Source: Desulfovibrio sp.
Lineage (GTDB): Bacteria; Desulfobacterota; Desulfovibrionia; Desulfovibrionales; Desulfovibrionaceae
Assembly: GCA_016208105.1 (NCBI GenBank)
Contig: JACQYS010000002.1
Location: 62,001-126,000 of the forward strand
Length of the DNA: 64,000 nt
Direction of reading: 5' to 3'
Position 1 is the first letter of the stretch. Every line of letters starts with the position of its first letter. Positions 7,701 to 62,147 of the stretch are shown piece by piece. The translations under genes were made by a program, and so were the position numbers. Below the pieces are notes generated by a model. The model was not told the origin of the DNA, did not search any database, and saw nothing but the letters and a program-made list of their open reading frames with translations.

Positions 7701-7898
7701 CTACCTTGGTACGGTCACTGCCTCCCCATTTTTGCCAAAGGATAGTGTGGCCGCGTTCAGTATACGGATGCCCCCGTTTGGGGAGTCGTCTTCAATAAAG
7801 ACAACCTTGTCACCCTGTTGCAAATCCAGTTTCTTACGAACCGCCACAGGGATGGTAATCTGCCCCTTGGAGGTCATGGTGGATACTTCCATTTTCAT
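7701..7898 (-). CDS. AbrB/SpoVT-type transcriptional regulator (65 aa)
   Basis: This small protein has the swapped-hairpin AbrB pattern: MTSKGQITIPVAVRKKL followed by GDKVVFIED. Such proteins bind AT-rich DNA as dimers and act as antitoxins or transition-state regulators. The frame is open for 54 codons further upstream, but the ATG at 7898 has a GGAG ribosome site at good spacing and starts exactly at the domain. No toxin-like gene is next to it; the darB-like gene follows after 5 bp. It is one of two candidate DNA-binding proteins on the element that could read the repeated AT-rich palindromes. Confidence 0.8.
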   Translation of the reverse strand: MKMEVSTMTSKGQITIPVAVRKKLDLQQGDKVVFIEDDSPNGGIRILNAATLSFGKNGEAVTVPR

Positions 7899-10516: not shown

Positions 10517-11812
10517 TCAGCAAAGTTCATTTTTCAAAGAATCATCTTCATTGGCGTCATACTCTTCCAGAAGCACTTCTGCCGGAGCAAACGTCATGCT
10601 GTCGTCTAGGTTCAGGCCCGACGACTCGAACAGGCGCGGCATATCTGAAAGCCAGCCCTGTGCGGCCAAATTGTCGCGTAAACGTGACACCGCATGGTCA
10701 AGGTGAGGTTCAAAAAGCGTTTTGCCAGCTCGCTCTTCCGCTGCATAATGCGCCCAGGCTGCAAAGCCTTCCGCCCAGGCAGCGCGGCCCCCGCATTGAT
10801 TGAGTGCGTACCAGAGTGGGCGATCCAAAGGCCGCAGCCAGAGGAACTGTGAGGAGGCCAGCACCCCCTTGCGCCGGGCCAGGGTCAGCAAAGCCATAAA
10901 CCAAGGCAGTTCAAAGGCCGCATGGCGTATCAAAAGCGGCTCAACCAACAGCCCTTGGTGTTTTTGCGCGATTGTATCCAGGGAACGCTGAAATCTGGGT
11001 TTTCCCAGCACTGGGCAGATGGGTTTTTCGACTTCTCGATAGGAGGTGGCCACGGTATCCAGAATATTCAGGCAGTCTTTTTTCCTTCCCGCAGCGTAAG
11101 CCAGCAAGGCGCAGGCCAGCGCCTTGCGTTCGGCGGCAAGGCCTAGGATGCAGGAAAATGCCCCGCCAAGTTGCTCGTGCAACACGGCAGTAGCCTTTGC
11201 TTCATCCAGATAGGCATTGCCGTATGCTGGCAGTTCGACATGCGCGAGGCCTCGCCGCAGAGCTTCATCCACACTGAAGGGTTGCCCGTCCTTGTTCAGC
11301 AAAAGCCCGTGCTCCAGGGCGAACTGCACAGGGCTGCGGGCAATGCGCCAGGGGCCGGAGTCATACGATTCCGGCGAAAGCAGGGCATTGCCGCGCCCCA
11401 CCACAGGCCGCAGGCAGGCAAAGGATTCGGCATTGTGCCTGAGCAAACTGTCCATGTTCAAACGCCGTATCAGCCCGGACGTTCTGCTCATGAAGAGACA
11501 CATCCCGCCGAGTGCCACCAGTATCAGGGCATAGGGCCAACGAACCCACTTGCCGCTGTAGCGCACCACGTTCATGACCTGATCCCAGGAGAGCGCGGCG
11601 GGGTCAGCCTGCGTAATCAATTCCCAAGCCTTGTCTGCTTCTTCAGAAAACGGCGTGAAGGCCACGATTTGCGCCTTTGCCAGTTTCAGCAATCCACCGT
11701 TGATTTTCCCCGCCCGTGCCACATACCAAGCAGGCACCAACAACAGAATGGCGATCATCAGACAGACCAGCAAAAACATGGTGTTGCCGCTGTCTTCGTG
11801 TTGGTTTTTCAT
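10517..11812 (-). CDS. Type IVB coupling complex protein, DotM/IcmP/TrbA-like
   Basis: The product has a membrane segment at residues 12-31 and another near residue 95, then a soluble alpha-helical domain with RSPVQFALEHGLLL and a family-like C-terminus. DotM partners DotL in the type IVB coupling complex at the inner membrane. Its ATG overlaps the stop of the transglycosylase gene (ATGA) and dotL follows within 9 bp, the same pairing as trbA-trbC on IncI plasmids. The assignment rests on the membrane layout, conserved segments and context. Confidence 0.8.
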   Translation of the reverse strand: MKNQHEDSGNTMFLLVCLMIAILLLVPAWYVARAGKINGGLLKLAKAQIVAFTPFSEEADKAWELITQADPAALSWDQVMNVVRYSGKWVRWPYALILVALGGMCLFMSRTSGLIRRLNMDSLLRHNAESFACLRPVVGRGNALLSPESYDSGPWRIARSPVQFALEHGLLLNKDGQPFSVDEALRRGLAHVELPAYGNAYLDEAKATAVLHEQLGGAFSCILGLAAERKALACALLAYAAGRKKDCLNILDTVATSYREVEKPICPVLGKPRFQRSLDTIAQKHQGLLVEPLLIRHAAFELPWFMALLTLARRKGVLASSQFLWLRPLDRPLWYALNQCGGRAAWAEGFAAWAHYAAEERAGKTLFEPHLDHAVSRLRDNLAAQGWLSDMPRLFESSGLNLDDSMTFAPAEVLLEEYDANEDDSLKNELC

Positions 11813-12360
11813 CGGGCACCTCCCGCTTTTGCCAACAGGTCAGCCAGCCCTGTGCGTTCCATCCGGGCCAGATGTTTTCTGACCCGCCCCAGGTAGGCGT
11901 CACGGAAGTGCGGAGTACGGGAATGGTACGCGCCCACGGCATCCCAAATATTGCGGGTACGGTCATACTCCTTACGCAGAATCCATGCCGCAGCATGGGC
12001 ATTGACGCAGCCGTCACGCAGTACCGCTTCAGGCGAAAAGCCCGCCTGCTGAAGTTCGTTGACGTGACAGGTGTTCACCTGGAAGCCGCCTAAATCCCAC
12101 GTTCCGTTGGTATTGCTGAGAGCTTCGCCTGTCTTGCCACCTTCTGTAGCCAAAATGCCCACCAGCGCGGCCAGGGGTAGACTGTAAACATCAGCCGCTT
12201 CCACCACGCACTCCCAGGATAAAGCGCGGGTGGGTGGAACTGCGATCCTGTCCCGATTAACGGAAGAGGCGGCAAGGGCCGTAGCGGGCAGGAGGCAGAG
12301 CCACATAGCGATATATAAATATATTTTTCTATGAAACATATGTTTATAGCTCGCTATCAT
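11809..12360 (-). CDS. Lytic transglycosylase of the conjugation machinery
   Basis: A signal peptide (cleavage near ALAASS) leads into a lysozyme-like domain: the ATEGG segment holds the probable catalytic glutamate (about residue 72), followed by NTNGTWDLGGFQVN and a C-terminal AVGAYHS. Such enzymes open peptidoglycan for the transfer channel. The frame is open upstream to 12510, but the ATG at 12360 overlaps the stop of the preceding gene (ATGA). A start at 12339 is also possible. The codons of the signal peptide contain a copy of the element's 28-bp palindrome (12305-12332). Confidence 0.78.
   Translation of the reverse strand: MIASYKHMFHRKIYLYIAMWLCLLPATALAASSVNRDRIAVPPTRALSWECVVEAADVYSLPLAALVGILATEGGKTGEALSNTNGTWDLGGFQVNTCHVNELQQAGFSPEAVLRDGCVNAHAAAWILRKEYDRTRNIWDAVGAYHSRTPHFRDAYLGRVRKHLARMERTGLADLLAKAGGAR
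12305..12332. promoter_or_regulatory. 28-bp AT-rich palindrome, copy 1 (degenerate, inside a gene)
   Basis: The outer ATAG...CTAT and inner ATAT...ATAT blocks match the 28-bp palindrome found at the other unit starts, at identical spacing; the four bases in each arm between them differ. It lies within the signal-peptide codons of the transglycosylase gene, about 0.5 kb before the dotM-dotL genes. It may be a binding site or internal promoter, or only a relic. Confidence 0.45.
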
Positions 12361-12773
12361 TTCAGTTTGCGAATCAGCGAACCAGCCACATCGCTGCCGC
12401 TGCCGGAGACCTGAAAGGGATTGTTTTTGCCAATGCCAGTCACGCTGGAACGGGCTTCGCTCAAAACCTCGTTCATCTTGCTCTGAATCATGGAATCCAC
12501 CTGACGGCACATGCCGTTGATGATGGAATCCATACTGGGAATAGTCACACCAAGGGAAAAAGCGTCTCCAATGCTGGCGATACTGCCCAGGCAGTTGGAA
12601 AGCGGCCCTCGATCTTCTTCAGGGTCGGGCATTGTGGTGTTATGGGTTTCCTTCACGCGGGTATTACGTTCCTTCATGGCACCAGTGGCCGCGTTCTGGG
12701 TATCGTCGCACGGAGACGCGAGACAGGGAGCCGCTATAAACATGAGCATGAGGGTTAACAGCAGAGTTTTCAT
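12357..12773 (-). CDS. Small secreted protein of unknown function
   Basis: This 138-residue product has a clear signal peptide (MKTLLLTLMLMFIAAPCLAS) and a mature region with three cysteines (PCDD, NCLG, MCRQ) and no domain that I recognise. It is translationally coupled on both sides (ATGA overlaps with the topoisomerase and transglycosylase genes), so it is probably a periplasmic accessory of DNA transfer. The DsbC-like protein of the same unit could act on its cysteines; that is inference. Confidence 0.65.
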   Translation of the reverse strand: MKTLLLTLMLMFIAAPCLASPCDDTQNAATGAMKERNTRVKETHNTTMPDPEEDRGPLSNCLGSIASIGDAFSLGVTIPSMDSIINGMCRQVDSMIQSKMNEVLSEARSSVTGIGKNNPFQVSGSGSDVAGSLIRKLK

Positions 12774-14779
12774 TTCTTGCCCCCCTTTTGGGCATTGAAG
12801 TTGGGCCTGCCGTCTTCCTCTAGCTGATAGAGCTTCTTGCAGCCGGGATAGCCGGAGCAGCCGAAGAACGGGCCTTTGGCACTCTCACGGCGCACCAAAG
12901 GCTTTCCGCAGGTGCATTTGAACTTGGTGGGTTCGGGCTTTTTACGGGCTTCGCCTGGTTTGCCGTCCACATTGGGGTAGCTGGCGTTGCAGGCACGGTC
13001 GGAACATGAAAAGAAGTCATATTCGCCGGAGCCGTCGCGGCGCTGTCCCTTCATGCGCACAAGAGGCTTGCCGCAGGCATCGCACACAAATTCTGTAGTT
13101 TCTGGGGCCTTGCGCTCCTGCTGGGGATACTTGGCCGTGAAGCCGCCAACTTCCTGTTGAAGCTGCTCATAGGCCATTTCCATGATTTCCCTGTAGGAAG
13201 CCGCGCCTCCGGCAATGGCGTCCAGATTGTCCTCCATCCCTCTGGTGAACTCGTAATCCAGAAAGGAGAATGCCCCAGTGAGCAAGTCCACCACCTGTTC
13301 CCCCACGGGCGTGGGCACGAGCTGTCTTTTTTCGACGCGGACATATTCACGCTTGAGAATGGTATCCACAATGGCCGCGAAGGTTGCCGGGCGACCTATG
13401 CCTCGGTTTTCCAGTTCACGAACCAGGCTCGCTTCCGAAAAGCGCGTGGGCGGTTTGGTCTTTTTGGTCAACACCCTGCCGCTGGCGGGAGAAACGCTTG
13501 TGCCCTGGCTCAATATGGGCACAGGGTTTTCCGGTTCGTCACCGTCATCGTCCCGTTCATCCAATGTTGCCGCGTCGGTCGCGAGCAAGACCTTCCAGCC
13601 GGGGTCACGCAATACCCGACCCCTGGCCTCAAAGACGGCTTCTTTGCTATCCAGGGCCGCAGCAAGACGGAGGGTGCGCACGTCATACACGGCATCCGCC
13701 AGTTGCGAGGCCAAAGTCCGCAGGCGGATGAGGCGGTACAGGGCCTGTTCGTCCGGGGTATCTCCGGCTTTTTCTACTTCTGGATGCGTAGGACGCACAG
13801 CTTCGTGCGCTTCCTGAGCGCCTTCCTTGGATTTCCAGACACGGGGCTTATCCACCAGGGACCAGCCGTGCGCCAGGCAAAAAGCGCGAATCTCCGCCAC
13901 AGCTTCTGCCGACAGATTGGGTGAATCCGTGCGCATGTAGGTTATGTGCCCAGCCTCATAAAGTCGTTGAGCCAGTTGCATGGTTTGTTTGGGGGTGAAC
14001 TTTAAGGCGTTGGAAGCCGCCTGCTGCAAGCTCGATGTGGTGAAGGGCGCGGGCGGGGCCGTATGGCTTTCGGATTCCATGCAATCTTTCACAGTAAGAG
14101 CAGGCAAGGCCGCAACACGGTCAGCCAAAGCAGTATCCAGCAGATATTCTTGGCCAGCCTGCAACCAGGACTTGGTAAGCCAAATGGCACTCCAGCCTCC
14201 GGCAAACGCCAGTTCCGCGCCGTAGTGGGTCACGGACACAAAGCCCTTGATAGCTCGTTCGCGCTCTACCACTAGCCGCACAGCCGGGCTTTGCACCCGC
14301 CCGGCAGACAGGCGTGTGCCAGCGGCACGAGAAAGCGGCCCACTGACCAAATACCCGCAAAAGCGGTCGAGAACGCGCCGGGCTTCCTGTGCCGCCACCA
14401 GTGCCATGTCCAGAGGTCGTGGGGCTTTCAGTGCCGCATGTATGGCTGAGGCCGTGATTTCGCTGTAGGTGACACGCTTGGGATTTTTTAGGCGCAGGGC
14501 ATCGGCAACATGCCAGGCAATGGCCTCGCCTTCGCGGTCAGGGTCGGTAGCGAGGTACACCGCACCTGCATCCTTGACCAGGGCTGCCAGCCTTTTGAGC
14601 ACGTCTTTGCCGCGCTCCGTGGGAGTATACGCAGGGGTGAAGTCCGGCAGGGCAATGCCCAACTCGCGCTCCGGCAAATCGCGCACATGGCCAACGGACG
14701 CGGCCACTTTCCAATCGACTCCCAAAATTGCCTGTACTTTTTTGACCTTGCCGGGTGATTCCAAAATGAGCAGATTCAT
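12770..14779 (-). CDS. Type IA DNA topoisomerase
   Basis: The N-terminal Toprim domain (LLILESPGKVKKVQ; DPDREGEAIAWH) is followed by the cleavage domain with the active-site tyrosine in GHITYMRTDS (near residue 278) and RGIGRPATFA. The C-terminus has at least two zinc-ribbon modules (CDACGKPLV..CSDRAC and CTCGKPLV..CSGYPGC). Many ICEs and plasmids carry such a topoisomerase to resolve DNA during replication or transfer. A GTG at 14785 is in frame, but the ATG at 14779 is better placed behind a GAGG site. It overlaps the end of the ArdC-like gene, and its stop is coupled to the next gene. Confidence 0.92.
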   Translation of the reverse strand: MNLLILESPGKVKKVQAILGVDWKVAASVGHVRDLPERELGIALPDFTPAYTPTERGKDVLKRLAALVKDAGAVYLATDPDREGEAIAWHVADALRLKNPKRVTYSEITASAIHAALKAPRPLDMALVAAQEARRVLDRFCGYLVSGPLSRAAGTRLSAGRVQSPAVRLVVERERAIKGFVSVTHYGAELAFAGGWSAIWLTKSWLQAGQEYLLDTALADRVAALPALTVKDCMESESHTAPPAPFTTSSLQQAASNALKFTPKQTMQLAQRLYEAGHITYMRTDSPNLSAEAVAEIRAFCLAHGWSLVDKPRVWKSKEGAQEAHEAVRPTHPEVEKAGDTPDEQALYRLIRLRTLASQLADAVYDVRTLRLAAALDSKEAVFEARGRVLRDPGWKVLLATDAATLDERDDDGDEPENPVPILSQGTSVSPASGRVLTKKTKPPTRFSEASLVRELENRGIGRPATFAAIVDTILKREYVRVEKRQLVPTPVGEQVVDLLTGAFSFLDYEFTRGMEDNLDAIAGGAASYREIMEMAYEQLQQEVGGFTAKYPQQERKAPETTEFVCDACGKPLVRMKGQRRDGSGEYDFFSCSDRACNASYPNVDGKPGEARKKPEPTKFKCTCGKPLVRRESAKGPFFGCSGYPGCKKLYQLEEDGRPNFNAQKGGKK

Positions 14780-14781
14780 AG

Positions 14782-16191
14782 TCACATCCTCATGCGTGTT
14801 GCGTGTGCTTCCGTCCCGGTGGGAGCCAGAGCGGCCCGATTCTTTTCGTCAAGTTCCATGCTCAAAGTGCTGGAAAAGGAGGCACACACATCCGCCAGAG
14901 AGCGGGCAGCGTCACTGTCCTGTTTGAGCACCTTGCTGAGAAAGTCAGGGTTTTGAAGCAGAATGCGGGCCTTGACCACATCCGCGTCCGCATCCTGAAA
15001 TGCCTGAGCTGATGCCGCAGAGGACATCGGCGCGGGTCTGGGCATGGGATCGTCCGTACTTCTGGCTGCCGCAGCTTCCGCCAAAGCCTCTACAGGCGTG
15101 GTCATGTGCGCCCCAGTTACGGCATCACGCTGGGCTTGCTCTTCAATCAGTGCGGGCCAAGTTTCGCTACGCGGGAACCATGCCGCCTTCGGCTGCTCAC
15201 CCATTTCAAACTGGTGCATGATGGTCAGTACCTTGGCCGCTTCTGCTGCCGCCTGAAACACGCCCTTGGCATCTCCCCCGGAAAACTTCTGGTTCCAGTG
15301 ATTGATGTAGGCGGCGGAATTGCTTGCGGGCATGGGCAGGTCGAACTTTGCCCCGGCCAGCATGGAGAACATTTCCGCCCGCATTTCCTCAAAGGCGAAA
15401 TTCTTGATGTTATGCGTCTGCTTTTCCTTGCGGTTCTCCCGATTAGCGTGGCCGGTGGCGTGATAGGTTTCATGCAGCTTGGTGGCGTAATATTCTTCGG
15501 GCACGGTGAAACGCTCAGGGAAAGGCATCTTCACTGTGTCGGCTGCGGGTTCATAGAGGGCATCACCGCCGTGATGTTCCACCGGAATACCTGTGCAGGC
15601 GATGAAGCGTTCCACAAAATCGTTGCGTTCAACCGTTGTCATGGCATGGGCTTGCTGCTCTTTCTGCGGAAATCCCTCTATTTGGGCGGCATTAAAGACT
15701 GTGAACGGATAAAACAGCGTCATGCGCTGCACATCTGGTATTTCCAACCCTTGTTCCTTTTGGGCAGCAAATTCTTTGAGCTGCTTGTCGGTGAGGTATT
15801 GCCACTTGCCGTCCTCGCCCACGATGAAGGCAATTTCTTCGGGCCGCAGGAGCTTGACGCCCTTCGCTCCTTTTTTGATCTTCATGTCGCGGGCAGGATG
15901 ATCCCCCTGAAACTGCTGAAATTGCTTGAATGTCATCCATCTGTCGTCCGAAAAGCCGTTGACGATGCTGGTCAGCATGAGCTTGACCATGTTTGCCCCG
16001 CCGTACTCGCGCCCCGTGGTGGCGCAAAAGGGCATTCCCATCGGGCTGTCAGCCGTCCAGGGCTTTTGCCACTTGCCTGCCTTTTCGGCCAAGGCCAACA
16101 TGTTTTCGGCAACAGAGTTGACGAAATCTTCTTGTACTTCCCGGCTGATCTGAAAGCGGTTTTTCTTTTCCGCAGACCGTTCCTGACTCAT
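14782..16191 (-). CDS. ArdC-like antirestriction protein / zincin metallopeptidase
   Basis: The N-terminus matches the ArdC single-strand-binding domain (KWQKPWTADSPMGMPFCATT followed by REYGGAN), and the middle carries a zinc-peptidase motif HETYHATGH near residue 241 with a downstream glutamate-rich helix (FEEMRAEM). ArdC proteins protect transferred DNA against restriction in the recipient. The C-terminal third is a less conserved extension. Its ATG overlaps the stop of the 70-residue gene upstream (ATGA). With the DarB-like protein this gives the element two candidate antirestriction functions. Confidence 0.85.
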   Translation of the reverse strand: MSQERSAEKKNRFQISREVQEDFVNSVAENMLALAEKAGKWQKPWTADSPMGMPFCATTGREYGGANMVKLMLTSIVNGFSDDRWMTFKQFQQFQGDHPARDMKIKKGAKGVKLLRPEEIAFIVGEDGKWQYLTDKQLKEFAAQKEQGLEIPDVQRMTLFYPFTVFNAAQIEGFPQKEQQAHAMTTVERNDFVERFIACTGIPVEHHGGDALYEPAADTVKMPFPERFTVPEEYYATKLHETYHATGHANRENRKEKQTHNIKNFAFEEMRAEMFSMLAGAKFDLPMPASNSAAYINHWNQKFSGGDAKGVFQAAAEAAKVLTIMHQFEMGEQPKAAWFPRSETWPALIEEQAQRDAVTGAHMTTPVEALAEAAAARSTDDPMPRPAPMSSAASAQAFQDADADVVKARILLQNPDFLSKVLKQDSDAARSLADVCASFSSTLSMELDEKNRAALAPTGTEAHATRMRM

Positions 16192-16400
16192 ACAGCCTCC
16201 TGCACAGACACAATGACGGTATCCGGTTCTTCATGGGGAGAAATAAAGCCCGCAGTAAGGGTGTCTTCCCGGCTCATGAGAAAGGCTCCGGCGTCCAACT
16301 GCCGCTCGATGTCATCAGGCGAAAGCATGATATGTTCTTTCGCCTGACTGCGTACCGGTGCATCAAAAAGGCCGTAGCTGTTGCGGTTTTCGGTATTCAT
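16188..16400 (-). CDS. Small acidic protein of unknown function (70 aa)
   Basis: The product begins MNTENRNSYGLFDAPVRSQA and has no domain that I recognise. The ATG at 16400 follows GGAGG at five bases; an in-frame start at 16412 would lie in the palindrome and is less likely. It is the first gene of the long unit that continues through ardC and the topoisomerase to the darB-like gene, and its stop is coupled to ardC. A copy of the element's palindrome sits 10 bp upstream of the ATG. Confidence 0.6.
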   Translation of the reverse strand: MNTENRNSYGLFDAPVRSQAKEHIMLSPDDIERQLDAGAFLMSREDTLTAGFISPHEEPDTVIVSVQEAV

Positions 16401-16410
16401 GCAAACCTCC

Positions 16411-16438
16411 ATAGAAATATATTTTTATATATTGCATA
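16411..16438. promoter_or_regulatory. 28-bp AT-rich palindrome, copy 2
   Basis: The first arm ATAGAAATATAT and the TTTT centre are identical to the perfect copies; the second arm matches at its first seven bases and then departs (ATATATTGCATA). It lies directly upstream of the ribosome site of the gene starting at 16400, where the promoter of the ardC-topoisomerase-dotM-dotL-darB unit should be. A related CATAGAAAACTATG inverted repeat adjoins it at 16435-16448. Confidence 0.65.
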
Positions 16439-16458
16439 GAAAACTATGTACTCATGCG

Positions 16459-16731
16459 CTACCAGCGGCAGCGTTGCCGCCATTGCACCTCGTTCTGCGT
16501 GGTCTCCCGCCGCCTGCCCATGAAGGCCACACGCAAAGCGCGAAAGCAGGCCAGCGGCGTCATACCCGTGCGTTGCACCAGATACAGGGCAACAATGGCC
16601 CCCCCGGCAACGGCAGCCGTCCACCATGCCCAATGGAACAGCCACAGGCCCAGCGGAAACACCGCGCGGGCATCCAGAATGAAGATTTTTGGGGTAATGG
16701 CGGTATCCCGCCAGAGTACGTCCTGTATCAT
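16459..16731 (-). CDS. IcmT/TraK-like type IVB secretion protein
   Basis: This is a 90-residue membrane protein with WRDTAITPKIFILDARAVFP, a transmembrane helix around residues 28-52, and a basic C-terminal region. The WRD...KIF.LDARA.FP pattern and size match Legionella IcmT and IncI TraK as I know them. Its ATG overlaps the dotB stop (ATGA), the same neighbourhood as traJ-traK on IncI plasmids. Confidence 0.75.
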   Translation of the reverse strand: MIQDVLWRDTAITPKIFILDARAVFPLGLWLFHWAWWTAAVAGGAIVALYLVQRTGMTPLACFRALRVAFMGRRRETTQNEVQWRQRCRW

Positions 16732-17882
16732 TGTTCCTCCTTAGTTATAGGCTGTGATGTTTTGCGCTCCGCCATGATTGCTTGAGTGTTTTCTTTGGTG
16801 ATTTTTCCTGCGTCATAGGCCGCTTGAGCCGCGTCCTGCATCCGTTGGCCGTATTTGATGAGCAGGGTTTCGCATGTCTGGATCAATCGCTCTTGCGGGG
16901 TATCCAGAAGCACTTCCCGAATTTCTGGCGTAAAGGCCAAAAACTCGCGCAGGGCAACACGCCCTTTACCGCCGAGCATGGGCACAAGGCGTTGGTTGAC
17001 CACCAGCCGCAGACTGGAGAGCAGCGTCACCGTGACTTGCAGTCGTTCTTCCACGGGGAACACATTGATGATGCGTGAAAGGGTTTCGGGGACAGAACGG
17101 GTATGCACCGTGGAATATGCGGCAACGCCTGTTTCCGCACTTTCGATCATGCCGCGCAGTGTTTCCGCGTCACGGCTCTCACCGATGAGCACTACGTTGG
17201 GTGCTGTGCGGGTAGAATTACGCACAGCCCGGATGAAGGATTGCAGATGCTCAGGAATAGTGCTTTGCGAGACTGGCCCGCCCTGGTTGGGGATGCTTAA
17301 AAGGTCAAATTCAATGGGGGATTCATAGGTAGCCACGTTGCGGCCTCCTTTTTCAATGATGTGCCGCAAAATGGCGGCAAGCAGCGTGGTCTTGCCTGAC
17401 CCCATGACGCCCGTGACCAGCACGAGGCCGTTTTCCGGGGTAGCGTGATCCAGAATGTTTTGTTCAACGCCCAAATCTTCAAGCCGAGGCGGCATGGAAG
17501 GAATGGTGCGAAAAACGATTTTGACGCCGGTGGAATATCCGTCCGCCACCGCGCCCGCATTGCCACGAAAGCGGCGGCGTACCCCTCTTGTTTCTTCTAT
17601 CTGGTGGGCGAAGTCGTAATCGTCCTGGCTGGATTTGATATAGGCCGCCACGGAATTATTGCGCGTAAGCCGCTCCAATCCTGCCAACAGCTCGTCCGTA
17701 GTAATGGGGCGCGTGGTGATACGCTGCCACACCCCGTCTTTGCGCACCCATACCGGCTGGCCGGAGCAAAGCTGTATGTCCGACATGCCACTGCTGGTCG
17801 CCCAAAGCAGCATGTCGTTGAGATTGTCCGTCTCCCAGCGAATGCGCGGTTCACGCGGGTACATTTCAACGGCTTCAAACAC
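16728..17882 (-). CDS. Type IVB secretion ATPase, DotB/TraJ-like
   Basis: This is a PilT/VirB11-family hexameric ATPase. Walker A (VTGVMGSGKTTLL) is near residue 160, the Asp box and Walker B region include LIGESRDAETL, and the His box is STVHTRSVPET. DotB works at the cytoplasmic base of the channel. I use the GTG at 17882, which follows AGAGGA; an ATG six codons later is an alternative. It lies between dotC and icmT in the compact unit dotD-dotC-dotB-icmT. Confidence 0.9.
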   Translation of the reverse strand: MFEAVEMYPREPRIRWETDNLNDMLLWATSSGMSDIQLCSGQPVWVRKDGVWQRITTRPITTDELLAGLERLTRNNSVAAYIKSSQDDYDFAHQIEETRGVRRRFRGNAGAVADGYSTGVKIVFRTIPSMPPRLEDLGVEQNILDHATPENGLVLVTGVMGSGKTTLLAAILRHIIEKGGRNVATYESPIEFDLLSIPNQGGPVSQSTIPEHLQSFIRAVRNSTRTAPNVVLIGESRDAETLRGMIESAETGVAAYSTVHTRSVPETLSRIINVFPVEERLQVTVTLLSSLRLVVNQRLVPMLGGKGRVALREFLAFTPEIREVLLDTPQERLIQTCETLLIKYGQRMQDAAQAAYDAGKITKENTQAIMAERKTSQPITKEEQ

Positions 17883-17885
17883 GGT

Positions 17886-18851
17886 TCACTTCCTCTTGCC
17901 AGTGTGTGCGGGAACGGTTTGCACTGGAATGAAGGACGAAGGCGCGGTGATGCGGTAGACCTTCTGCCCGATATGCAGCTTGTTGCCGCCGTCCGTGGTC
18001 TTGCTGCCAAGCTCTGCGGAGGCCGTGTTGACCCGGCTCAAGAGATGCTGGGCCGTGAGTAGGTGGTAGAGCATCACACCGCGATAGATGCGCACCATGC
18101 GGGACACATTGTCGGCATAAAGATGATCTGCTTCTGTCAGCCCCTGTGCCCAGGCTTCGCGCACAGCAGTCCGCCAGATGAGCCGCTCTTTATCGTTCTT
18201 TGGCATGACGGCGGGATTGGGCTTTTCTGGCTCAGGGAAGCCGTCCGTCATAAGGAACTCGCGCCAGGTAGGCGCGGCAGCCACATAACGGGCAGGCGCA
18301 AGCAGATCATACGAGGTAAGCGCGGCGGTGGCGGTCTCGCCTGATTCAATGCGCATGGAAGCCCCGGCCCGCGTGAGCACAGGCGGCAAAATCAGGGCAT
18401 CTCCCTGCGTCATCAGGAGTGGCCCAAAGTTGAAGGCAGTATCCATGATGGAACTGTGTTGTTCCGTGGCTGCCACAAGTTGCTTGTAGCGATACGTCAT
18501 CGCCGTCTGGAAGGTGACAAGCTGGGCCGCTTCCTTAATGGCCGCAGGCCGCATGAGGCTGACGGCGGTTTCGTTCTTCGCTGCCCCCTTCATTTCAAGA
18601 AGTGCGGCCAGCTCTTCCGGTTCACCACGGCGAGGACTGCCGGCAGCATCGTCAGGCAGATGGACTGTGAGGGGCTGGCCCTCCTCACTTTTCACGGGAG
18701 CGACTGGCGGTGCAGGTTTTTCAGTGGTTGCAGCCACATTCGTCAGCGGCGGCATGGGCACCAGGGGCGCTGGTTCCTGAACATCATTTTTGACGGCGCA
18801 TCCGCCAAGACACATCAGGAGCACTGCCAGCGTACAGAGTGAACGGTTCAT
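17886..18851 (-). CDS. Outer-membrane core lipoprotein, DotC/TraI-like
   Basis: A lipoprotein signal (CTLAVLLMCLGGC, lipobox LGGC) is followed by a proline-rich linker and a conserved domain with AAPTWREFLMTDGF and AWAQGLTEADHLYADN, patterns of the DotC family. DotC with DotD and DotH forms the outer-membrane part of type IVB channels. The ATG overlaps the dotD stop, and dotB follows within 4 bp. Confidence 0.87.
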   Translation of the reverse strand: MNRSLCTLAVLLMCLGGCAVKNDVQEPAPLVPMPPLTNVAATTEKPAPPVAPVKSEEGQPLTVHLPDDAAGSPRRGEPEELAALLEMKGAAKNETAVSLMRPAAIKEAAQLVTFQTAMTYRYKQLVAATEQHSSIMDTAFNFGPLLMTQGDALILPPVLTRAGASMRIESGETATAALTSYDLLAPARYVAAAPTWREFLMTDGFPEPEKPNPAVMPKNDKERLIWRTAVREAWAQGLTEADHLYADNVSRMVRIYRGVMLYHLLTAQHLLSRVNTASAELGSKTTDGGNKLHIGQKVYRITAPSSFIPVQTVPAHTGKRK

Positions 18852-19321
18852 GATTGCCCCCCGGTGCTGACTGTGCGGGCCAGAGTTATGACCCGGCCAA
18901 TGGGGTCAACGCGCAGCACAGCCTGCGGCTGCACCTGCCAGGCAATGTCTTCCAGCAGCACATGGGCCGGACGATTCAAGCCGCGCACCACCACAGTCAG
19001 TATTTGCGCCGAGGGCTTGCCCGCTTCTTGATAGCGATAGCCAAGTTGCAGGCAGATTTCTTTGACAGCTCCTTCAGCCGGGCCAGTCCATGAGATGGAC
19101 ACCGGCTGGCTGAGGCTGGGATCAGCGGGCGGCAAAAGTGGCTGTAAGCCCTGCCCGCGCAGTTTTGCCAGCATGGCAAGTTCGCCGTGGGCAATCTGGG
19201 CCGCATCACCAAGGGTGACGGTCACAAAGTCAGCCGGATTTGTGGGGTCTTGTGTGGGCTTCTTTCCCGCACAACCCGCCAGGACAAAACAACAGATGAT
19301 AAACGCGCATCTTCGCAGCAT
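18848..19321 (-). CDS. Outer-membrane core lipoprotein, DotD/TraH-like
   Basis: The 157-residue product has a lipobox (FVLAGC) and a C-terminal domain with ISWTGPAEGAVKEICLQLGYRY, resembling the secretin-N-like fold of DotD. It is the first gene of the dotD-dotC-dotB-icmT unit, with an AAGGAG ribosome site, and is divergent from parA. A perfect copy of the 28-bp palindrome lies 29 bp upstream of its ATG. Confidence 0.85.
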   Translation of the reverse strand: MLRRCAFIICCFVLAGCAGKKPTQDPTNPADFVTVTLGDAAQIAHGELAMLAKLRGQGLQPLLPPADPSLSQPVSISWTGPAEGAVKEICLQLGYRYQEAGKPSAQILTVVVRGLNRPAHVLLEDIAWQVQPQAVLRVDPIGRVITLARTVSTGGQS

Positions 19322-19350
19322 GAGAAAGCTCCTTATGTGTTTGTAGGTTT

Positions 19351-19378
19351 ATAGAAATATATTTTTATATATTTCTAT
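19351..19378. promoter_or_regulatory. 28-bp AT-rich palindrome, copy 3 (perfect)
   Basis: The arms are ATAGAAATATAT and its exact reverse complement around TTTT. It sits in the 124-bp divergent region between dotD and parA, immediately before the -35 of the inferred parA promoter. The sequence is identical over all 28 bases to the copy at 23023-23050. Confidence 0.8.
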
Positions 19379-19379
19379 T

Positions 19380-19407
19380 TTTACAGTTGAATATATATTT
19401 ATATAAT
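19380..19407 (+). promoter_or_regulatory. Inferred sigma-70 promoter of parA
   Basis: TTTACA (19380-19385) and a perfect TATAAT (19402-19407) are 16 bp apart. Transcription would start near 19414, about 30 bases before the parA ATG. The -10 box overlaps a degenerate copy of the palindrome. Confidence 0.6.
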
Positions 19408-19412
19408 GCTAT
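19385..19412. promoter_or_regulatory. 28-bp AT-rich palindrome, degenerate copy over the parA -10 box
   Basis: Aligned to the perfect copy seven bases upstream, the inner AATATAT block, most of the centre and the terminal CTAT are kept, while the first four bases differ. A protein bound here would cover the -10 box, as in partition operons that repress themselves. Confidence 0.4.
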
Positions 19413-19445
19413 GGGTTCTCTGGACAGCATCACCAAGGAGAACCT

Positions 19446-20222
19446 ATGAGTAGCATCGTCATCGCCAACAAAAAGGGCGGCGTGGGCAAAACCACCACGG
19501 CGCAGAATCTGGCAGCAGCCCTTGCCGCCCACGGCAAAAAAGTGCTGGCCGTGGATATGGACGCTCAGGCCAATCTGACCCGCGCCTGGGGAGTGCCCCA
19601 TGACGGCAAAAGCGTTCTGGACGTGCTCAGGAGCAAGGCCACATGGCAGGACATTGCCGTGCCGGTGGAAAAGGGGGCGGGCTGTGTCTTGCTTGCGCCA
19701 GCCAGCCGTCAGCTTGCGGCTATGCCGGAGGTTTTTGCTCAGGAGATCGGTAAGGAACTCTTGCTGAAAGAAGCGTTGGAGGCGGTGCAAGGCACCTTTG
19801 ACGTGATCATCATTGACAGCCCGCCCTCGCTGGACTTGCTGGCTATCAACACCTATGCGGCGGCAGACGCCGTGGTCATTCCGGTGCAGACGGAGTTCCA
19901 TTCCCTGGAAGGCCTCGCCCTCATGCAAGACGACCTGGAGCGGGTGCGCCGCCGCCTCAATCCTAATCTGGCGGTGCTTGGCATCGTCCCCACCTTCGTT
20001 GACCGCAGAAAGCGGCTGTGCCGTGACGTGCTGGATGTGCTCACCGAAAAACACGCGACTGACCTCACCCAGAGTGTCATCCGTGACAACGTGACCTTGG
20101 CCGAAGCCCCAAGCCACGGCCAGAGCATCTTTGCCTATGATGCCAAGTCGTATGGGGCGCAGGATTATGCCGCCCTTGGAGCAGAAATAGTAACCAGACT
20201 GGAGGCCCGTTATGGCGCGTAA
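19446..20222 (+). CDS. parA: ParA-family partition ATPase (type Ib size)
   Basis: This is a Walker-type ATPase of 258 residues with the deviant P-loop KKGGVGKTTTAQN at residues 9-21, VDMDAQANLTRAWG, and IDSPPSLDLL. There is no N-terminal DNA-binding extension, so it is of the small ParA type that usually works with a ribbon-helix-helix partner, and such a gene overlaps its 3' end by 11 bp. It segregates or maintains the element, which implies an extrachromosomal phase. It has an AAGGAG ribosome site. Confidence 0.92.
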   Translation: MSSIVIANKKGGVGKTTTAQNLAAALAAHGKKVLAVDMDAQANLTRAWGVPHDGKSVLDVLRSKATWQDIAVPVEKGAGCVLLAPASRQLAAMPEVFAQEIGKELLLKEALEAVQGTFDVIIIDSPPSLDLLAINTYAAADAVVIPVQTEFHSLEGLALMQDDLERVRRRLNPNLAVLGIVPTFVDRRKRLCRDVLDVLTEKHATDLTQSVIRDNVTLAEAPSHGQSIFAYDAKSYGAQDYAALGAEIVTRLEARYGA

Positions 20223-20520
20223 GAAAGGCGGATTGGGGCAAGCTGCCCCCGTGGAACCGCAGGAAGATTTGCTCGACACTGTGTTCGGTGCGCCAAAGTC
20301 TGAGCAGAAATCCACACTAAAGACAGACACACCCCCGCCCGCCGCAGCGGGCAAAGACAAAGATGCCCCCAAAGGCAAGGAAAACCGAGTGGGCAAATAT
20401 TTTCTCATCGACCGCGACCTGGCCAAGGCCATGAAGCTCTTTGCCGTACAGAATGACATGAAAGAAATCGCTGTCATTGAAGCCTCCCTACGCGCCTTTT
20501 TGGGCAAGGCCGACAACTGA
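20212..20520 (+). CDS. ParA partner protein with C-terminal ribbon-helix-helix domain
   Basis: Residues 1-60 are disordered and rich in Lys, Pro and Ala (GKDKDAPKGKENRVG). The C-terminal 40 residues (YFLIDRDLAKAMKLFAVQ and on to LRAFLG) have the beta-helix-helix pattern of ParG/omega/CopG proteins. These bind short operator repeats, repress their own operon and serve as centromere-binding partners of small ParA proteins. It overlaps parA by 11 bp. Its last 33 bp overlap the 3' end of the opposite-strand gene at 20488. It is the first candidate reader of the repeated palindromes. Confidence 0.78.
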   Translation: MARKKGGLGQAAPVEPQEDLLDTVFGAPKSEQKSTLKTDTPPPAAAGKDKDAPKGKENRVGKYFLIDRDLAKAMKLFAVQNDMKEIAVIEASLRAFLGKADN

Positions 20521-20928
20521 GCACAGCCAGCTAGGGAAGGACTGAAAGCGGCGGCGGGAAAGCACGGATAGACGCCAGTAGGTGGTACACAGCCCAAGGC
20601 AACAGGGCACTACTATCAGCACCACGGCGAGCCATACGATTGTGCTATGGCTCACCATCAGTGCAGCGGAACAACCCAGCAGTGGCAGCGCAAAGATCGG
20701 AAGCCGCAAGCGCAGTTCCGCCAGCACATAGGGAATGTGCGTGGCGTCTTCAATGCCCCAGGCCTGAAGCACCCGTGCAAAGTCTTTTTCCATCGCGTCT
20801 TGTTCCTCTGGGGCGCGGTTGGCCTTGAAGTGTTGCAGGCGGTTCCGCAAATCTCCGCGCAATGCTGCCAAATGGGTGCTTGTGGGCTGTATCCGTGCCC
20901 TGAGAGCTTCTTTTGTTTTTTCAAGCAT
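20488..20928 (-). CDS. Two-helix membrane protein of the transfer region
   Basis: The 146-residue product has a soluble N-terminal half (residues 1-70, with basic and acidic helices) and two adjacent transmembrane helices (about 75-118), then a basic tail. I do not recognise the family. It directly follows dotA on the same strand with a GGAG ribosome site two bases from the dotA stop, so it belongs to the transfer operon; TraX occupies a comparable place on IncI plasmids, but homology is not shown. Confidence 0.6.
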   Translation of the reverse strand: MLEKTKEALRARIQPTSTHLAALRGDLRNRLQHFKANRAPEEQDAMEKDFARVLQAWGIEDATHIPYVLAELRLRLPIFALPLLGCSAALMVSHSTIVWLAVVLIVVPCCLGLCTTYWRLSVLSRRRFQSFPSWLCSVVGLAQKGA

Positions 20929-20930
20929 GG

Positions 20931-22997
20931 CTAACTCCTGAAATTATGCTCAGACAGGTTGTCTTTTGGGCCTGCCGCCCCGGCATTGCCGCCTCGGATG
21001 GTGCTACGCAGGCCCTTTGCGCCTTCAGCCCCTGACGAAACCGCATTGGTAGACCCCACAAACACGCCTTTGACGCCGCTTTGGTCTTCCTTTTCCCCAA
21101 GAGAATGGAATTGTTGGCCGATCCAGTTGGTCACATGCTCCGGCAGGTAGTGAATGAGGCTGAAGAACTTGTTGGCCGTCATAATCACCACGATGCCCAG
21201 AATCACGAGCATGGATATGGTGCCGGTAAGACCAATCACCTTGGCTTGCGAGGTTCCGGCAATGAACATTTCAAAGCTGGCCCCGATGAGTCGCCCCAGC
21301 ACATTCATGAGGATGACCGCGCAGAAGAACCCGGCCACCATGAGCGGCGGGCGTATAACAATGCCGAGCAAGAGCAGATAGCCGCGCCTGCCGTGCTGCC
21401 CGGCTGCCCCATCCCCTTCGGGCAGGGCATGGGCGCACAGCCACAGCGGAGCGGCCACAAGCGATTCCACAATGAGGATTACCCAGCCGGTAAGCGCGGA
21501 AACCCAGCGAATAAAAGGAATGGCCGGAAGGTAGTAGGCCAGGGCTAGGCCGTAGAGCAGCAGGGGCAGAAAGACGGAAAACAGGACAAAGGCGATATAT
21601 TTGTCCAGATTGGGAATAGCACTGCCAATGAAGGGAATGGCTTTGCCCATTGCGTGTGTGACATCAAGAACACCCAACGCAGCAGCCAGGCCCCAGGCCG
21701 TGCCGATGAGATAATCCCCCACGTTGGAGACAGCCATAATGGGATCTTTGCTGGAGAGCTTTTCCACCGCAATGGGCAGAATGTTGGCACTTACCAGGCT
21801 GTTCAACGTAGAACGCAGCCAGTTACCCACATCACCGAGTGCCCGAGTTTCGTCTGTCACCGCAGGGTGCGCCGTGGTGTCGGAAATGCCGCGCCGCGTG
21901 GCATAGGCCGTCTTAATGTAATTGGCCACCCGTTCTTTGATCGCTTCATAATCCTGCAAGCCAAAGTTCATGGCGTAGAGTTCGGATGCCGTGTATTCAC
22001 GCGGCGCATACGAAATGCCGGAATACATAGCTTCGCGCACTTCCTGATTGATCCAGGCGATAGACCAGTAGGATGAACCAGCAATAAACCAGCCGTACTG
22101 TTTGGAAATGTCCTGAAAGTCATGCAGCTTGCTTTTGAGCTGGCCCTGCTTGGCATAGCTTTGCAGAGAAGAAAGGATGGTCGCGTTTATGCTGTTGGCA
22201 GCCGAGTGCAAAGCCAGCGGGTCAATGGCGTCAGCAGGAGTATCAGGATTGGCAAGCTGGCTAGCCACCGAAGAGAGCGACGACACCGCCGTGCCCACGG
22301 CATTGACCTTGCCCCGGCACAGCGCGTCACCCTCGTCCACGCATTCCACCATGATGGTGCCGGAATTACCGTTGAACGAAAAACGATATTCGCCGCCTGA
22401 TCGAATCCAATTACCGCTGTAGTTCCATTTTCCCCCAGGAGAAATGCCGAGGCCTCGTCGCTCGTTAAGGTAGTATTGCAAGGTCAAGGATTCCAGCGAA
22501 CCATTGGCAATGGCGGCATAATGGGTCACATTCTGGTCAGGAGCCTGTATAGTGATCTGCCCGCCGTGCTCGACAAAGTAGTCTGTGCCCAACTCCCAGA
22601 CGAAATTGCCCAAGTTGATGGAAAAGCCGATGCAGGCCAGAATAGCTACCTGAAAGAAACTCAGCCCTTTGAAGATAGGAGCCAGTGCCCCCATTGCCCC
22701 CACAAAACGCAGCGGCATCCACAGTGAACTGTAGCGTTTGCCAAAGGGCGTTCCCTCGTGGGCCGTGCCTGCCACAGCCATAGCCAGCACCCAGATAAAC
22801 AGAGCCGAAATGGTTGCCAACGCCACTATGTTGAAAGCACTGAACAGTTGCAGCATGAGTTCCGCAGCTTGCGAACCGCCAAGCCCCTGGCCCCATGCGT
22901 CCCAGCCTTGCCCCAGCAAGGTGTCCAAAAACTGTTTGCTGGCGTCACTTTTGAGCAACACTTCAGAGGTTGCGGGGATGTCGGGTGAAGCGGCCAT
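20931..22997 (-). CDS. Integral membrane transfer protein, DotA/TraY-like
   Basis: This 688-residue polytopic protein has N-terminal membrane helices (about residues 50-75 and 100-135), a long periplasmic loop with cysteines (VECVDEGDALCRG), and a C-terminal cluster of about five helices (residues 425-600), the DotA/TraY arrangement. DotA is an inner-membrane component of type IVB systems. It begins a unit with its own copy of the perfect palindrome 25 bp upstream and an AAGGA ribosome site. Confidence 0.85.
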   Translation of the reverse strand: MAASPDIPATSEVLLKSDASKQFLDTLLGQGWDAWGQGLGGSQAAELMLQLFSAFNIVALATISALFIWVLAMAVAGTAHEGTPFGKRYSSLWMPLRFVGAMGALAPIFKGLSFFQVAILACIGFSINLGNFVWELGTDYFVEHGGQITIQAPDQNVTHYAAIANGSLESLTLQYYLNERRGLGISPGGKWNYSGNWIRSGGEYRFSFNGNSGTIMVECVDEGDALCRGKVNAVGTAVSSLSSVASQLANPDTPADAIDPLALHSAANSINATILSSLQSYAKQGQLKSKLHDFQDISKQYGWFIAGSSYWSIAWINQEVREAMYSGISYAPREYTASELYAMNFGLQDYEAIKERVANYIKTAYATRRGISDTTAHPAVTDETRALGDVGNWLRSTLNSLVSANILPIAVEKLSSKDPIMAVSNVGDYLIGTAWGLAAALGVLDVTHAMGKAIPFIGSAIPNLDKYIAFVLFSVFLPLLLYGLALAYYLPAIPFIRWVSALTGWVILIVESLVAAPLWLCAHALPEGDGAAGQHGRRGYLLLLGIVIRPPLMVAGFFCAVILMNVLGRLIGASFEMFIAGTSQAKVIGLTGTISMLVILGIVVIMTANKFFSLIHYLPEHVTNWIGQQFHSLGEKEDQSGVKGVFVGSTNAVSSGAEGAKGLRSTIRGGNAGAAGPKDNLSEHNFRS

Positions 22998-23022
22998 AGG
23001 GTATCCTTGCGTTATATTTTTG

Positions 23023-23050
23023 ATAGAAATATATTTTTATATATTTCTAT
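23023..23050. promoter_or_regulatory. 28-bp AT-rich palindrome, copy 4 (perfect)
   Basis: It is identical to the copy at 19351-19378. It lies between the TraW-position gene and dotA, overlapping the stop codon of the former, and so marks the start of the dotA unit. As a hairpin it is almost pure A/T with no GC stem, so an operator is more likely than a terminator. Confidence 0.8.
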
Positions 23051-32997: not shown

Positions 32998-33084
32998 TGG
33001 TGCCGAAGGGGAGACTCGAACTCCCATGCCCTTGCGAGCACTAGACCCTGAACCTAGCGTGTCTACCAATTCCACCACTTCGGC
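32998..33084 (-). tRNA. tRNA-Leu (anticodon CAG)
   Basis: The minus strand folds into a class II cloverleaf: acceptor GCCGAAG/CTTCGGC, D-loop with TGGTAGAC, anticodon stem CTAGG/TCTAG with loop TTCAGGG (anticodon CAG), a long variable arm, GTTCGAGTC T-loop, and an encoded CCA at the 3' end (32998-33000). tRNA-Leu genes are frequent integration sites; the mobile element lies on the 3' side, as expected for such an insertion, but no repeat of the 3' end of the tRNA was found at the other side within the window. Confidence 0.97.
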
Positions 33085-34161: not shown

Positions 34162-34187
34162 AAAAGATTTCTTCGTCATCGAATCTA

Positions 34188-34234
34188 ATGAGTTAAGCCC
34201 CCGTGTCGGCTGCCGACACGGGGGCTTAACTCAT
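34188..34234. repeat. Long near-perfect palindrome between ribF and the Liv binding protein gene
   Basis: Two 22-bp arms (perfect match, containing AAGCCCCCGTGTCGG) flank a three-base loop (CTG). It could end transcription from both sides of the two converging genes, but neither side has a clear T run, so a structural or REP-like repeat is also possible. Confidence 0.6.
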
Positions 34235-34244
34235 AAATGCGGGT

Positions 34245-61988: not shown

Positions 61989-62147
61989 GCTTCCCGGATA
62001 TTCGTGAAATCCATAACAATCCCCGGCAAATCGTTTATTTACCATGGGTTTTGTCGTCTTTTTCTAAAAAGGGCCTAGACACCATATGGGAAATCAGGTA
62101 GGAACCCCCCGGGCTTGAAACAAAATTCACAATTAGGGGGGCGGTTG

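Follow-up and report, generated by a model that had tools for sequence, protein, structure and literature searches.

Recurrent AT-rich palindromes as putative shared operators of partition and transfer genes in a Dot/Icm-type conjugative element of Desulfovibrio

The principle that partition and transfer of a mobile element can be coupled is already known from several well-studied plasmids. ArtA of plasmid pSK41 is a ribbon-helix-helix (RHH) master regulator that acts through several operators on conjugation and segregation genes (PMC6540685), and the omega protein of pSM19035 is an RHH protein of the ParB kind with sites in several promoters (PMC9499535). In NAH7, the inverted-repeat parS is repeated upstream of the conjugation gene mpfK and ParB regulates transfer (PMC12421886). 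KorB of RK2 is a partition protein doubling as a plasmid-wide regulator (PMC11790492). StbA of R388, a single DNA-binding protein, balances stability against transfer, and its motif recurs in other promoters (PMC3098194).

Here we describe a locus in Desulfovibrio sp. that combines features of these systems, as predicted from sequence. The window, i.e., the whole stretch of DNA analyzed, comprises 64,000 nucleotides (positions 62,001 to 126,000 of contig JACQYS010000002.1, assembly GCA_016208105.1, hereafter G000) and contains a Dot/Icm (type IVB)-type conjugative gene array on a mobile element in the chromosome. On balance, the AT-rich palindromes that recur in this array are probably operators of the element's partition cassette, and the RHH protein of the cassette would bind every copy, regulating its own par genes as well as transfer genes. 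What is new here is not the coupling itself but the combination of an RHH-type protein with ParA, the kind of element in which it is found, and its possible gain together with the cassette.

The likeness to each known system is partial. As with ArtA, an RHH protein would act at several operators, and those predicted here lie at both transfer and segregation genes, the segregation side having a parA promoter-like sequence; ArtA, however, is a regulator in its own right, the gene of which lies at the tra region of a Gram-positive plasmid, and it is not the partner of a ParA. Omega is an RHH centromere-binding protein that accompanies a ParA and whose sites overlap several promoters, as we predict for our protein, but omega recognizes arrays of the 7-bp repeat WATCACW, located at copS, delta and omega, and no transfer genes are among the named targets. 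The NAH7 partition site recurs upstream of a conjugation gene in the same manner, but it is an 18-bp inverted repeat of unrelated sequence belonging to a parA-parB-parR-parC cluster, and NAH7 ParB activates, whereas repression is proposed for the G000 element. KorB shares the double role of partition protein and plasmid-wide regulator but is a ParB DNA-sliding clamp rather than an RHH protein, acting with KorA over long range. StbA likewise serves both stability and transfer and has its motif in other promoters, but it recognizes direct 9-bp repeats, and no ParA is described as its partner.

The array includes genes for DotH, a TrbI-like DotG, DotM, a TraG-type coupling protein, DotA, DotB, DotC, DotD, ArdC, a topoisomerase, a transglycosylase and a very large helicase-methylase; the best named match of the DotA protein is from a Nitratidesulfovibrio plasmid. 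Almost all of these genes are directed leftward, and the parA-rhh pair, located between orf146 and dotD, which are adjacent to each other in most relatives, is directed rightward. The product of parA (19446-20222, plus strand) is a Walker-type partition ATPase with a KGGVGKTT motif (Pfam AAA_31, E=7e-49) that matches ParA-type ATPase families with scores under the NCBIfam cut-offs. Downstream of it, as in type Ib-like partition loci, lies a small gene with an RHH DNA-binding domain, rhh (20212-20520, plus strand, 102 aa). The assignment of the latter comes from a profile search (SvtR, PDB 2kel, E=3.7e-5), from a structure model and from Foldseek, the best matches of which are RHH proteins with weak E-values and high probability; several members of the rhh alignment also match RHH Pfam families. 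The model is confident over about 36 residues only, with a C-terminal beta-alpha-alpha unit and a low-confidence, probably disordered N-terminus. GLG and DLL..VFG motifs at the N-terminus are common to the parA-linked members of the alignment, and the GLG-type N-terminus presumably resembles the ParA-contacting tails of ParB proteins. The rhh product is most likely a ParB-like, centromere-binding partner of ParA.

The palindrome ATAGAAATATATTTTTATATATTTCTAT is present in two exact 28-bp copies, as the first-pass annotation had reported. One of them (19351-19378, hereafter site I) is located between the divergent dotD and parA genes, directly 5' of the parA -35 element, and the other (23023-23050) overlaps the stop codon of the gene preceding dotA, in a short gap between genes of the same direction. 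Site I precedes dotD (18848-19321, minus strand, identified by synteny), which heads a dotD-dotC-dotB-orf90 group, and the 23023 copy precedes dotA (20931-22997, minus strand, with DotA/TraY relatives). A third copy (16411-16438, 24/28 matches), one arm of which is degenerate, occupies the 58-bp gap between co-directional genes upstream of orf70 (16188-16400, minus strand), which heads orf70-ardC-topB and onward. The distances to the first ATG of dotA, dotD and orf70, 25, 29 and 10 bp, respectively, are as annotated earlier. The degenerate fourth copy (12305-12332) also matches at 24/28 positions, to the reverse complement, but it is not intergenic: it is found inside the first codons of slt (11809-12360, minus strand; transglycosylase, Pfam SLT, E=1e-8), the ATG of which (12360) overlaps the stop codon of the upstream gene. 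To these four copies, all of which are present, must be added a fifth that had been overlooked, site II (19385-19412), which matches imperfectly (21/28) and overlaps the parA promoter. In the scan of the window the five sites score 28 (19351), 28 (23023), 24 (16411), 24 (12305) and 21 (19385), and matches elsewhere, away from these sites, reach at most 18/28; when up to 3 mismatches are tolerated, none of 100 shuffled windows reaches the same number of matches (mean 0.00).

The proposal that the copies mark starts of transcription units holds insofar as they lie at gene 5' ends, but a clear divergent promoter is present only at dotD/parA. There, a promoter-like sequence TTTACA-16-TATAAT (19380-19407, plus strand, 11/12 match) begins 2 bp past site I and overlaps site II. 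On the strand that carries the transfer genes, a promoter search at dotA, dotD and orf70 gave no good sigma-70 match.

By pattern search of the 4.18-Mb assembly, the palindrome is not scattered over the chromosome but confined to the element. Allowing up to 3 mismatches, the genome has two occurrences of the 28-mer. Allowing up to 1, it has four of the 18-bp core AATATATNNNNATATATT, including site II with one mismatch, compared to about 0.07 occurrences of the core expected from base composition; the four are spread over 6.6 kb of the element (16416 to 23045 of the window). Among 288 genomes of the family that were surveyed, only G000 and the genome G094 have such a palindrome without mismatches, and four further genomes have one with a single mismatch. 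In three of these four, G042, G095 and G282, the AT palindromes were considered as the same operator and rejected as chance occurrences, since their neighbors look chromosomal and the element genes have no match there. The exact 28-mer had no match in the GTDB r220 and IMG/VR collections.

G094 carries the closest related element, with an RHH protein 85% identical to ours, and it is the only close relative with the same site sequence. Three of the four positions are kept in it: dotD/parA, where site II is also conserved, orf70, where an aligned counterpart is found at the same place, and slt, where the counterpart has 12-bp arms with one mismatch. The dotA site is absent, about 690 bp being inserted in G094 between orf366 and dotA, so that the expectation of palindromes at the same places is borne out in this relative except at dotA, where the copy is unique to the G000 element and where many relatives have an inserted gene. 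Within the dotD-parA gap, the stretch 19351-19411 is identical to G094 at 55 of 61 bases (90%), and its flanks at 14/29 (48%) and 14/34 (41%). The 28-mer itself has two changes in G094, which fall on symmetric partners (positions 4 and 25) and convert ATAG..CTAT to ATAT..ATAT, preserving the palindrome. The chance of two random changes being symmetric is about 0.012, and such a pair is what would be expected of a site for a dimer.

A DotA search returned more than 20 close syntenic relatives, and 30 stretches were taken for gene mapping. Nineteen of the loci, with dotA 76-83% identical, have an intact orf146-dotD junction and lack parA-rhh there; two of these, G090 and G099, carry a parA-rhh-like pair, but on another contig. 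We defined an AT island as a 30-nt window with at most 4 G+C. As far as each contig reaches, the dotA, dotD, orf70 and slt positions of the 19 loci have no AT islands; their upstream sequences are ordinary, and a few have a different palindrome beside a gene inserted at dotA. Elements carrying parA-rhh do have AT islands: at dotA, orf70 or slt they are present in 3 of 4 loci with the cassette versus 0 of 19 without it (Fisher p=0.002, a descriptive value because the loci are related). Since homologues of rep, AbrB, dot and darB occur in both groups, parA-rhh is the only co-varying locus seen. In L043, L046, L047 and others, the gene inserted between orf366 and dotA is an antitoxin-like gene on the opposite strand, and some of the inserts at this position bring their own GATATTGATA-type palindrome. 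In L043 and L046, the AT palindromes close to dotA are a different motif beside antitoxin-like inserted genes and were rejected as copies of the same operator.

We infer from this evidence that the RHH protein, as a dimer or a higher multimer, would bind sites I and II in the divergent promoter region between dotD and parA and so regulate its own par genes as well as dotD-dotC-dotB; the same two sites with the bound protein would probably form the centromere. The protein would also bind the copies in front of dotA and of orf70 (with ardC, topB and onward) as well as the one at the 5' end of slt. We expect it to act as a repressor, because the sites either coincide with the parA promoter or hold TATAAA/TATATT hexamers just before ribosome-binding sites. 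Transfer would thus be restrained in parallel with partition until dilution or titration of the RHH protein releases it. The earlier idea of a shared operator for partition and transfer genes gains from the confinement of the sites to the element, their conserved positions in a relative, the footprint-like constraint, the symmetric change and the co-occurrence with parA-rhh; the imperfect match of the orf70 and slt copies, the latter of which is in a coding sequence, counts against it.

Alternatively, the copies could be mainly dispersed centromeres (parS) or anchoring sites that serve segregation of the excised element and have little or no effect on expression of transfer genes. The sites adjoin parA-rhh and share its distribution, and RHH proteins of the ParB type do use centromeres located in promoters (PMC9499535). 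We nevertheless regard this as unlikely, given that every copy lies at a gene 5' end, that in all three cases the centre reads AAAA on the strand of the transfer genes, and that in the genome G073 a short RHH gene is located beside dotD without parA and without the N-terminal tail.

The binder may also be a protein other than the RHH one, such as the AbrB-like protein (7701-7898, minus strand, AbrB/MazE fold), the rep-type HTH protein or a host nucleoid protein attracted to AT-rich DNA. AbrB-type proteins often bind AT-rich operators, and in positions 1-30000 of the window the palindrome sites are the sole AT islands. Yet AbrB and rep homologues are present in relatives that have no sites, so that the distribution of the AbrB gene does not follow that of the palindrome, and exact identity over 28 bp together with a symmetric substitution ill suits a general AT binder. 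Of the two candidates put forward in the first-pass annotation, the RHH protein is therefore favored and the AbrB-like one disfavored, and we consider any of these other binders quite improbable. Still less credible is that the palindromes are RNA hairpins between genes, stabilizing or processing a polycistronic transcript: the perfect copies do have folding energies of about -10 kcal/mol (z about -7 and about -10) and the symmetric change would also keep RNA pairing, but the stem is degraded at orf70, where the fragment from G094 is no more stable than shuffled sequence (z -0.26), the loop is conserved, and sites I and II precede or overlap the likely parA promoter and are not in the parA transcript.

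Elements with more diverged RHH proteins are consistent with the RHH protein being the binder. In G090 (RHH 62% identical) the AT block upstream of par occurs twice, before parA and before another gene. In G103 and G104 (RHH about 40%) a palindrome AAAAATATTTTT is found at the par promoter and in the region before orf366, from which it is separated by an insert in G104. In G073, inverted repeats with AGATATA/TATATCT arms are found beside dotD and before another gene. These motifs were called by eye, which makes them weaker than the G094 comparison, but the palindrome changes its spelling along with the RHH protein, as it should if this protein binds it. The RHH protein has no relative among the plasmids and viral contigs searched, and genome contigs contain one distant match, from Fibrobacteraceae.

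We tentatively entertain a broader, somewhat doubtful scenario in which gain of the parA-rhh cassette rewired transfer control in this type IVB family: the operator would have spread to dot genes, ardC and slt, it and the RHH protein would then have diverged in concert between elements, and G073, with its RHH gene by dotD, would be a case lacking parA. If this is true, the partition protein is a modular, exchangeable switch for transfer. The locus provides a sequence-defined case of a partition protein proposed to govern conjugation in a chromosomal Dot-type element, beyond the well-studied plasmids, and the roughly two dozen related elements, some having the cassette and others not, lend themselves to a comparison of how control circuits are gained and rewired.

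Several observations concern the borders of the element. At its right edge, beside the rep-type gene, lies a tRNA-Leu (CAG) gene (32998-33084 of the window); a direct repeat of the tRNA-Leu end, sought on the left as the element border, gave nothing convincing. Positions 1-1956 are identical over all 1956 bp in G137 and G139, which belong to the same genus, with an abrupt break at 1956, and ribF of these two genomes is only 75% identical to that of the window, which points to a recently shared cargo island abutting the left side of the element. A relaxase-like gene (L070, G000 C2:51765-54029), 45-69% homologous to genes of related elements, lies about 8 kb beyond the left end of the window, and the element therefore appears to extend past the cargo island. 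Just past ribF, a very strong inverted repeat with 24-bp arms (34186-34236; GTTAAGCCCCCGTGTCGGC...) is likely a transcription terminator.
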